From Sphingopyxis sp. YF1 (lineage in GTDB: Bacteria > Pseudomonadota > Alphaproteobacteria > Sphingomonadales > Sphingomonadaceae), in the NCBI RefSeq assembly GCF_022701295.1, contig NZ_CP033204.1, positions 1,178,001 to 1,242,000 of the forward strand: a stretch of 64,000 nucleotides of DNA, given 5' to 3'. The notes below the pieces were generated by a model. That model saw nothing but the letters and a program-made list of their open reading frames with translations, was not told where the DNA came from and did no database searches. The position numbers and the translations under genes were made by a program. Positions 41,283-43,181 of the stretch are shown piece by piece (the first letter of the stretch is position 1; each line of letters starts with the position of its first letter).

Positions 41283-41335
41283 GGGTCGTGGTCACCGACA
41301 AGCGGGGCAGTTTTGGGGTGGGAAGCGGACGTTTC
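41283..41335. repeat. Island repeat copy A (partial)
   Basis: The stretch ends in TTTTGGGGTGGGAAGCGGAC followed by GTTT, and matches the right half of copy C (42557-42627) with few changes. The left GTCCGC end seen in B and C is missing here. It sits 58 bases before the first low-GC gene. Confidence 0.6.
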
Positions 41336-41393
41336 CTTCTTGATCGATCCAAGGCAGGTAGATTGCTACTGCAAGTAGAGCGATAGGACAGAG

Positions 41394-41792
41394 ATGCCCC
41401 ATGACAGAAAGCTGGTTCTTGGAGGGGTATCCCTAACCTTAGCAAAAATACGACCAGCTAGTGCAAACAGTGCGGCTGCTAGTCGCGTGCGCGATGACCT
41501 TGAACGGGAGATGGTTGCGTCCGGTTATCTCGAAGGCGCTCCGTTCAAGTGGGTAAGTCTTATCGTTAGGTATGGATTAGTCGATGAGCCCGAGCCATCT
41601 TATGGGGCCATCAATCAGAAGCACGGTGACTTACCTCTTGCTATTGAAGTCGACGTTCAAAACCTCCTCGGCGTTTCGGAGGACGATATGGCGCTGGTTT
41701 ACAGGAGGGCCACGTTGGCGGCGTTGATCCACGCCGGCGAAAAATATGGGCTTAAAACAGATGCGCTGCGGGCTCTCCTGAGCCCATCTTGA
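41394..41792 (+). CDS. Imm39-like immunity protein
   Basis: A 132-residue protein of visibly lower GC than its surroundings. The C-terminal 80 residues carry FKWVSLIVRYGL, YGAINQKHGDLPLAIEVDVQNLL and LAALIHAGEKYGLKTDALR, which match my recollection of the Imm39 family, immunity proteins found beside polymorphic toxins. The start at 41394 follows AGAG; the first 30 residues are less conserved. No toxin lies beside it, so it could be an orphan immunity gene kept against toxins of others. It is followed three bases after its stop by repeat copy B. Confidence 0.6.
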   Translation: MPHDRKLVLGGVSLTLAKIRPASANSAAASRVRDDLEREMVASGYLEGAPFKWVSLIVRYGLVDEPEPSYGAINQKHGDLPLAIEVDVQNLLGVSEDDMALVYRRATLAALIHAGEKYGLKTDALRALLSPS

Positions 41793-41794
41793 AC

Positions 41795-41858
41795 GTCCGC
41801 AGTCGGTCGAATCAATCCAAATCGGCGGCGAACGGCGACTTTGGGCTGTGAGGCGGAC
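41795..41858. repeat. Island repeat copy B
   Basis: 64 bases from GTCCGCAGTCGGTCG to GGCGGAC, with GTCCGC/GCGGAC terminal inverted repeats, starting three bases after the Imm39-like stop. It shares GTCCGCA-N-CGGTCG, GCGGCGA and TTTxGGG blocks with copy C. Confidence 0.65.
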
Positions 41859-41899
41859 ACAATGTGAGCTACGCCATGCAGCCGATATTGGGGAAACAC

Positions 41900-42541
41900 A
41901 TGAGTGAAACGAAGCTAAACGGAGCAGAGAAGCGGGCGCGCCGCCAACTCGGAAAACTGTTTGATGCGGCGTGGAAACGGGAAGCAAAGGCTGCTGGTTG
42001 GGGCTATCTTAAGCCGACTTCGTTCAAGCGGATTGGCGATTGGTTCGTTTATCTGGATCCAGAAATCTCAACTGAACGAAACAGTTCAAAAATCTCTGCC
42101 ACGGTCAAGCCGTTTGCTATTGATGACCTGATGAGCCGCATTCTCGGCTTCGAAGGATTAGATGGGACATCATTGTCCCTCCGCGCTCGTGGTCCCCACT
42201 GTTTGGTCGTTCCAATGTTCAGTAGTTCGATCGAAGGCGATGGCGGTCTTGATCGCATGATCGAGCTTGCCGCAGAATTTTCAAAGACGATGCCGGTTCG
42301 CGTCGAAGCGTTAACGCTGGCGGACTTCGCCGATTTTTCCGCGGCGCCCGCCGGACATGTATCGGCCAATCAAGTTGCGGCACTAATTTTAGCGGGGGAA
42401 GGAGAAGAAGCCGCCAAGCTTTGCGAACTAGCGATTTCCATAAAGCAATGGGGTGGCCCCGCTCGCAGTACCGCCGACGGAAAAGTTGTAAGTTTCTTTC
42501 ATTTGGCACGCCAGTGGATTGACGAGCATAGGGATGCGTAA
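41900..42541 (+). CDS. Cytosolic protein of unknown function in low-GC island
   Basis: A 213-residue protein from ATG 41900 (MSETKLNGAEKRARRQ) behind GGGGAAA; a GTG at 41864 in frame has no ribosome site. The N-terminal half reads WKREAKAAGWGYLKPTSFKRIGDWFVYLDP and SKISATVKPFAIDDLMSRI, a layout reminiscent of DUF4304-type immunity or accessory proteins, but I cannot assign it. The C-terminal half is helical. No signal or membrane segment. Codon use is AT-richer than the chromosome, as for its neighbour. Repeat copy C begins 16 bases after the stop. Confidence 0.65.
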   Translation: MSETKLNGAEKRARRQLGKLFDAAWKREAKAAGWGYLKPTSFKRIGDWFVYLDPEISTERNSSKISATVKPFAIDDLMSRILGFEGLDGTSLSLRARGPHCLVVPMFSSSIEGDGGLDRMIELAAEFSKTMPVRVEALTLADFADFSAAPAGHVSANQVAALILAGEGEEAAKLCELAISIKQWGGPARSTADGKVVSFFHLARQWIDEHRDA

Positions 42542-42556
42542 ATCTGTGGCACCAAT

Positions 42557-42627
42557 GTCCGCAACCGGTCGTTTTTGGCGTTGCCCCCGACCAACGCCGA
42601 GCGGCGATTTCGGGGTGGAAAGCGGAC
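42557..42627. repeat. Island repeat copy C
   Basis: 71 bases from GTCCGCAACCGGTCG to GGAAAGCGGAC, with GTCCGC/GCGGAC terminal inverted repeats. It follows the second low-GC gene by 16 bases and is the most complete copy. Confidence 0.7.
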
Positions 42628-42645
42628 GTTTGCTCTCAATTTGTA

Positions 42646-42724
42646 CCCCGGCGAGAGCCGGGGGCCAGGGCGTCAGAACGTCAGCGTTGCGTAGTTCCGC
42701 TCTGGGCCCCGGCTTTCGCCGGGG
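42646..42724. repeat. Inverted pair of REP hairpins
   Basis: CCCCGGC-GAGA-GCCGGGG (42646-42663) and CCCCGGC-TTTC-GCCGGGG (42707-42724) form a head-to-head pair, like a BIME. The outer GCCAGGG and CTGGGCC parts can also pair. This and the next element fill the gene-free stretch 42628-43181; I see no gene in it. Confidence 0.75.
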
Positions 42725-42753
42725 CACGGCAATGACCGGTCGCTTTCCGCCAA

Positions 42754-42887
42754 TCCTCCCTGTGGCGAAGCCATGGGGAGGGGGACCGCCGCCGCAGGCG
42801 GTGGTGGAGGGGCCGCGAGGTCGCGTCTTTCGCCCCTCCGTCAGCGCTCCGCGCTGCCACCTCCCCATCGCTGCGCGACCGGGAGGA
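42754..42887. repeat. 134-bp palindromic sphingomonad intergenic element
   Basis: Terminal TCCTCCC/GGGAGGA inverted repeats enclose paired CCATGGGGAGG / CCTCCCCATCG arms and an inner ACCGCC...GGCGGT hairpin. Elements of this kind recur in sphingomonad genomes. The rest of the gap up to 43181 has a GTGACCTTTGTGACCTTC short direct repeat and nothing else I can name. Confidence 0.7.
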
Positions 42888-43181
42888 TCAATGGGCCGTA
42901 CCCATCCGTCACGGTCCCGAAATATTCGCTTTCCTAAAATATCCCGCCATGCTCCAAACTGGCCGATGACCCATATGCCTCTCTCATTCTCTGCCGCCGC
43001 GCCCTGGCTGCGCGGGCCGGGGAGCGAAAGAGAAGGGGGACGTGGCGTGACCTTTGTGACCTTCCGGAAGAAACGGCGCGCTTTGCCCCTGCGCTCCGTG
43101 CCGCGTGGCAGCGCGTTTCAACTTGCAACCCGCCGTGCGTCATGGTCAAACATGCGCGACAGAACATAGGGGAGACGGGTC

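Follow-up and report, generated by a model that had tools for sequence, protein, structure and literature searches.

What placed two genes of low GC content, framed by copies of one repeat, between genes for a thiolase and an aldehyde dehydrogenase (named by reading the ORFs) in Sphingopyxis sp. YF1, and does the frame itself take part in their movement? The insertion lies in a stretch of 64,000 nucleotides, here called the window (G000:C1:1178001-1242000), of a 4.37-Mb genome assembled as a single contig. An earlier note, made from the letters alone, described repeat A, an Imm39-like gene, repeat B, a second gene and repeat C, and likened each gene with its repeat to an integron cassette. The repeats are present where they were described, both genes are there, the first one belongs to the Imm39 family, and the payloads are less GC-rich than their surroundings, as had been claimed (0.528 and 0.529 vs. 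0.664 for the window). What the two-gene description had missed is a third, noncoding unit (42610-42742). The repeat consists of two halves, R (TGGGGTGGGAAGCGGAC) and L (GTCCGCAAYCGGTCG), and the order of the locus is R-Imm39-L / R-221-aa gene-L / R-noncoding-L, with the following features:

41300..41312, + strand: chromosomal outer arm flanking R site 1; GGCAG at 41306-41310 follows the G.C.G pattern (pattern from the profile of 152 units)
41313..41330, + strand: R site 1 (repeat A), TTGGGGTGGGAAGCGGAC, left end of the array (sequence)
41394..41792, + strand: cargo gene 1, Imm39 immunity protein, 132 aa (PF15568, E 7.7e-28)
41795..41809, + strand: L site 1 (left half of repeat B), GTCCGCAGTCGGTCG, closing unit 1 (sequence)
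41841..41858, + strand: R site 2 (right half of repeat B, 3 mismatches), opening unit 2 (sequence)
41876..42541, + strand: cargo gene 2, 221 aa (225 aa from the GTG at 41864) (ORF)
42557..42571, + strand: L site 2 (left half of repeat C), closing unit 2 (sequence; homology to the G002 copy stops here)
42610..42627, + strand: R site 3 (right half of repeat C), opening unit 3 (sequence)
42628..42742, + strand: unit 3, noncoding hairpin payload CCCCGGCG...CGCCGGGG (genome copies)
42731-42742, + strand: degenerate L, AATGACCGGTCG, ending unit 3 (sequence)
42743..42756, + strand: outer (chromosomal) right arm (by eye, L073 compared with the window: similar in G026 after its different payload)

The Imm39 stop codon (41790-41792) is followed by repeat B 3 bases later, and the stop of the second gene (42539-42541) by repeat C 16 bases later. 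Our main reading, to which we give a probability of about two in three, is that the locus is a short array of mobile cassettes of a non-integron site-specific recombination system, likely worked by a small tyrosine recombinase. The earlier interpretation is supported in large part, with its unit boundary and gene direction in need of correction. The units are cassette-like, as proposed; the true unit, however, is R-payload-L and not a gene with the repeat behind it, and repeat A, which matches the right half of C, is not simply a truncated copy of it, since units and arrays usually open with a single R on the left. The suggestion of a cassette-gathering mechanism other than the integron gains support from copy number, from the variety of payloads and from unit polymorphism.

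When lengthened to 20 bases and allowed up to 3 mismatches, the R motif has two matches in the window compared with 0.01 expected, and the L motif (up to 1 mismatch) has 62 in the genome compared with 3 for the reversed control, which gives the many copies that the earlier note had proposed to look for. The genome pattern GGNNNAAGCGGACG had 10 matches vs. 18 for its control. In 45 stretches of the own genome (202 kb around matches) R and L are mostly co-oriented and arranged in the order R-payload-L, the units being roughly 140-760 bp long. Exact extended L is present in 45 of the 80 genus genomes, with one control match overall. The polarity sample comprised 90 loci (332 kb) from the search of these 80 genomes and contained 113 L sites (up to 1 mismatch). 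Within 60-900 bp of them a co-oriented R lies upstream in 98 cases and downstream in 13, and an R on the opposite strand upstream in 3 and downstream in 6; with the distance extended to 1.6 kb, 92 of the 113 L sites have a co-oriented R upstream and 21 have no R upstream, several of the latter being near the end of a locus. A plasmid collection queried with the repeat site gave no match. A variant L site, GTCCGCAAYYGGGTCGTTA, was found in 31 of the 296 genomes of the order and in 8 of 79 genera, again with one control match. In a related genome (G458, locus L323) this variant forms an array of 17 regularly spaced sites, in which 17 of the 18 L sites have an R 55-57 nt further on and genes read in both directions. 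The full L-s-R pattern has 50 matches in 27 of the 80 genomes compared with 8 for the control, so that some of them are due to chance, and the matches with visible outer arms are mostly of near-equal length. In L195/L226 (G018) an R-L unit encloses a transposase-like ORF, presumably of the IS5 type, so that ordinary insertion sequences, too, can land in cassettes.

Base-by-base comparison of six sets of units having the same payload at different places located the ends of the unit. In five sets, among them two copies in G044 and window gene 2 compared with G002, homology begins at R (TGGGGTGG) and stops at L (CGGTCG) and the flanks are unrelated; the sixth (L201) is a tandem duplication with partly common flanks. 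As to unit 3, six of its best eight other copies in the genome start at query 19-23, which is the start of R, and one of the six stops at query 153, the end of L. Exchange was followed in units with both flanks aligned to another genome, sharing of payload being judged at blastn E 1e-5. None of the nine pairs of occupied orthologous sites, distributed over seven loci, share a payload, some of the payloads being short and noncoding; single-unit polymorphism, another expectation of the earlier note, is seen in all nine, the window locus among them. A tenth comparison met an unoccupied site. At the window locus the most similar of the 60 genomes searched (G026) has a left flank that matches at 94% over 498 bp up to a point 2 bp short of the unit, a right flank of 91% over 478 bp and a single noncoding unit vs. 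the three of the window. Three different payload sets occupy L244, L262 and the own 832052 locus, and in L189/L219 the left flank (98.7%) and a 40-bp spacer between two units are kept and both payloads differ. The gap between the thiolase and dehydrogenase genes is 122-132 bp, without insertion, in 12 of the 28 other loci read. The unit boundaries, the recurrence of the same payloads across loci and species and the different payloads at orthologous loci can all be read from these alignments, and mobility of the R-payload-L unit is, as far as sequence comparison goes, well supported.

Two families of noncoding hairpin repeats are found at this end of the locus, at 42643-42727 (CCCCGGCG...) and 42753-42888 (TCCTCCCTGTGGCG...), and both are dispersed genome-wide, often nested in or beside R-L units. 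The search of Rfam with the neighbouring hairpin gave four microRNA-type matches, all under their cut-offs.

A profile of 152 units (11 of 163 were left out for mismatches) revealed the anatomy of the sites. Each unit end has two inverted arms of ~11 bp, AAYGNCNGCWW, around a fixed spacer, which is TGGGGTGGG at R and YCGGTCGT at L, and the core site is about 30 bp long; cores with both arms intact measure 31 bp in 9 of 12 cases at R and 30 bp in 23 of 30 at L. The payload border reads GCGGACRTT and the bases that follow are near random. The attC site of integrons has the core GTTRRRY and the complementary RYYYAAC, and the remark of the earlier note that the repeat ends do not carry this core was borne out by the profile. 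The chromosomal outer arms keep the alternating G.C.G at 78-84%, and the docking site therefore seems to be recognised too. Integron sites work as folded single strands, for which covarying arms would be expected. Variable arm pairs of the left site do not covary (57 of 152 paired vs. 53.9 expected, and 47 vs. 47.3), one arm pair of the right site (L), beside the spacer, does (121 of 152 vs. 113.7, P 0.0002), and five single-site folds gave z from -1.76 to +0.53. On balance, the covariation figures, which have limited power, suggest half-sites acting on duplex DNA rather than on a folded strand.

From the sites we infer the following course of events. The cassette, R-payload-L, carries the spacer and the inner arm, and the outer arm belongs to the chromosomal docking locus. 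Since the spacers of R and L differ, exchange would take place between two R sites or between two L sites, not between R and L. Double exchange would replace one payload by another at the same locus; a circular cassette that enters by one R x R exchange would add a unit and leave a composite L-s-R of ~77 bp between units. The likely enzyme is a tyrosine recombinase of ~210 aa, apparently a catalytic domain only, the gene of which lies just upstream of R in some related genomes.

The 152 units fall into 104 payload families. A cargo ORF (at least 55 aa, GC below 0.60) is present in 74 of them, seven of these 74 coming from loci of the collection scan, so the idea of a different small gene with each copy fits these families and does not fit the other 30. 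In 24 of the 74 the ORF reads from R to L and in 50 in the opposite direction; the repeat on the 3' side of the gene, taken by the earlier note as the rule, is therefore not general. Third-position differences are in excess in all four cassette gene pairs compared, so that these are genes under selection. Differences between cargo gene 2 and its G002 copy number 11/5/29 by codon position. This gene has no Pfam match up to E 1 and has 30 homologs, of which the named ones are hypothetical or uncharacterized.

Pfam was searched with 67 cargo proteins, seven of the 74 having been left out as doubtful, and gave 11 member matches in 10 families: Imm39, Imm53, CdiI_3, SUKH-4, T6SS_Tdi1_C (below its cut-off), DUF4304 (twice) and four other DUF families. 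NCBIfam and PADLOC gave one match each with the same proteins. In the control, 22 host ORFs of the window matched 36 families, with no immunity family among the 25 of them that were listed. The proposal of immunity genes as cargo holds for this set of proteins and found no counterpart in two other arrays (L323 and L325), where 2 of 20 proteins had any Pfam match and none matched a named immunity family. Immunity genes are a visible part of the cargo, most of which is without known function. Imm39 itself was rejected as a marker of the system, being present in only 4 of 298 genomes of the family, the other three without an R/L frame (by eye, ~400 bp on each side). The Imm39 gene has a similar start in L148, L150 and L151 (by eye). 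In two of these, L148 and L150, the Imm39 genes of other genera follow an apparent toxin C-terminus (by eye), unlike the lone Imm39 of the window; the position after the toxin C-terminus is the usual place of immunity genes.

The window has no tyrosine recombinase match, in line with the earlier observation that no integrase is nearby. In the whole genome 15 PF00589 matches were found and compared with 314 fetched loci. The small tyrosine recombinase (209-212 aa) matches PF00589 only (E 2.9e-20) and stays under the curated cut-offs of every NCBIfam model listed, including XerC, XerD and the integron integrase. The catalytic set of tyrosine recombinases is R, K, HxxR, H/W and Y, and among 21 sequences K88, R160, H183 and Y192 are invariant and R60 and H157 nearly so; the AlphaFold model (mean pLDDT 57.5) is too poor for use. 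We infer the assignment of this enzyme to the cassettes mainly from where its gene lies. The layout recombinase-R-payload-L occurs in L328, L360, L368, L369 and L372, of which L360 has the recombinase, R and L within the window's own genus and L328 (G470) has a complete recombinase at the head of an array, 43 bp before R. In L323 a C-terminal recombinase fragment lies at the head of the 17-site array, 72 bp before R, beside a transposase ORF (L323 6748-7485) that we take to be of the IS6 type. In 30 loci from 30 genomes an R-like motif was found 60-110 bp past the recombinase stop in 7 (no mismatch), 8 (up to 1) or 12 (up to 2), where 0.01, 0.09 and 0.68 would be expected from 3070 background windows; this range was set post hoc, after a look at 400 bp (15 of 30 vs. 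17% in the background), and as the loci share descent the P values overstate the case. The distance from recombinase to R in the 12 loci is 72-88 bp. The enzyme is present in 20 of the 31 genomes with the variant L site vs. 73 of the 265 without it (odds ratio 4.8, P 6.6e-5, with the lists crossed by hand and phylogeny ignored). The arm and spacer anatomy and, in part of the loci, the adjacency of recombinase and R are thus directly visible when nucleotide sequences are compared.

There is also counter-evidence to the assignment. The motif is missing from the expected place at 18 of the 30 recombinase loci, and the own copy (G000:C1:1028717-1029343) has no canonical R within 400 bp. Only two of the seven array stretches fetched (the fragment in L323, and L328) have the small recombinase and five are without it; G029 and G006 bear cassettes, yet had no recombinase match at E 1e-20. 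An R-like motif is lacking next to all four rhizobial plasmid copies and one of the two sphingomonad ones, the other sphingomonad copy having one at +129.

Such observations bear on a second reading, in which the cassettes are real and site-specific, another enzyme (XerC/XerD, the recombinase trio RIT or a larger integrase) moves them and the small recombinase is a passenger. We consider it unlikely, though not negligible. It is favored by the many cassette-bearing genomes without the small recombinase, by the 15 PF00589 matches of the genome, which include XerC/XerD-like (by eye) and RIT proteins, and by integrases of a different, larger type that neighbour cassette sites: in L325, about 1.8 kb ahead of the first R, in L326, and in L247 (G044), where the ORF (805-1977) ends 47 bp from an opposite-strand L site (2024-2038). 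The regular distance to R in 12 of 30 loci, which was measured for the small recombinase only, argues against it. XerC/XerD are credited with the Acinetobacter dif/pdif modules, the sites of which are 28 bp long (11+6+11) in the accessible part of the source (PMC12907356). As far as that account goes, the two systems are alike in modules bounded by sites of two inverted arms with a short centre and in islands of consecutive modules; the spacers of R and L differ from those of dif in being 8-9 bp long and each fixed to the left or the right end (PMC12907356). RIT was rejected as the enzyme, its flanks holding other repeats and no R/L sites. The RIT of this genome (G000:C1:2946991-2949367; L280, L283, L281) is made of three adjacent tyrosine recombinases, flanked by TATGCCGAG-type repeats and nucleotidyltransferase-like ORFs (the latter by eye).

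Quite improbable, in our view, is that R-payload-L units are non-autonomous transposons (MITE or REP-like, with a RAYT or other transposase in trans) entering intergenic sequence. The units are scattered, frequently next to terminator-like sequences and intergenic repeats of other kinds, their ends are short and partly inverted, and one pair of occupied and empty sites exists (own L015 vs. L260), which is not clean, tens of bp of flank differing on either side. However, no consistent target-site duplication was found over the 152 units (900 combinations of length and offset, the best with 3 matches vs. 0.25 expected), and transposons would not be expected to fill one site repeatedly with different payloads while its spacer is kept, nor to give a 17-site array of constant spacing. 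REP/RAYT elements (PMC2817692) are likewise short, partly palindromic intergenic repeats in many copies; here the repeats differ in delimiting exchangeable genes. The RAYT/REP reading was rejected, as the Y1 transposase (PF01797) has no match in the own genome and is missing from 65 of the 80 genus genomes, 15 having one.

A reading with no dedicated recombinase, in which ordinary homologous recombination acts on the dispersed short repeats or, once DNA has been taken up, on the flanks, is very improbable. In its favor, R and L are repeated genome-wide, and flank recombination can also change a payload between conserved flanks. Against it, R and L have only about 17 bp in common, which is short for homologous recombination, copies of one payload at unrelated loci have their breakpoints at R and L, and the G.C.G half-site pattern of the chromosomal arms suggests a binding protein.

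Integrons are the textbook case of cassette collection in bacteria, and several of their features recur in the site-specific array that we favor. As in integrons and CALINs, there is one small gene per cassette, arrays have composite sites of constant length, a recombinase precedes the first site in some loci, the pool of genes without known function is large, and arrays without recombinase and single cassettes exist. Unlike them, the present cassettes have no GTTRRRY core, two different sites each and genes in both directions (24 vs. 50 of the 74), and are dispersed at dozens of loci. The integron/CALIN reading fails on the core site, on gene direction and on the integrase score, as the recombinases of L284 and L328 reach 20.9 and 22.6 bits with TIGR02249, the cut-off of which is 265.

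A second comparison is offered by the recombinase-associated acquired interbacterial defence (rAID) arrays of Bacteroidales, for which the accessible part of PMC12247911 describes short co-oriented genes in a single array, some of them coding for immunity proteins such as SUKH, with intergenic motifs that are conserved and a tyrosine recombinase. A tyrosine recombinase (here a candidate), short-gene arrays with immunity proteins (SUKH) and intergenic motifs are common to both; on the basis of that text, the system described here is set apart by its layout, namely mixed gene directions (also in L323), dispersed cassettes and R + L sites, and by its occurrence in Alphaproteobacteria (PMC12247911). 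A head recombinase in the rAID manner, followed by R and L sites, is seen in the five loci with the recombinase-R-payload-L layout and is missing at the window locus and in five of the seven array stretches fetched. No description of the system was found among the open-access papers listed, as judged by title or start of abstract, a scope that mostly leaves out subscription papers, so that it may be in print elsewhere, and the accessible part of the RepRanger paper (PMC12306157) has nothing on sphingomonads.

More tentatively, at slightly less than even odds, we propose a separate class of cassette systems in Sphingomonadales, and perhaps more widely in Alphaproteobacteria, in which the ~210-aa recombinase would capture cassettes and swap them among dozens of docking loci via two heterospecific sites and so circulate immunity and other small genes. 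It would be an apparently independent counterpart of the integron, with other sites, probably another recombinase and a chromosome-wide distribution instead of one platform. At all seven orthologous loci compared the cargo was different, and the exchange would give bacteria a concrete way to trade immunity genes unaccompanied by the toxins. The system may also be a natural two-site tool for cassette exchange, testable by a simple plasmid assay.

The candidate belongs to a very large family of recombinases: 7998 of 8000 scored candidates pass E 1e-20, and of 441 plasmid records 318 are below 60% identity. A 209-aa recombinase is 97-100% identical in three species (own genome L330, G056 L331 and G047 L332), and in all three loci it is followed by a different, conserved site-like sequence, GGAACGTCCGCTCTC. 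The same small recombinase is found, without an array of small genes, on plasmids of Mesorhizobium, Sinorhizobium, Rhizobium and Aminobacter (L382-L385). In three of these four cases it adjoins defence-like genes (AAA ATPase and RloB; AAA ATPase and ThiF with multiubiquitin; AAA ATPase and helicase), and in the fourth it lies beside genes of sugar metabolism.
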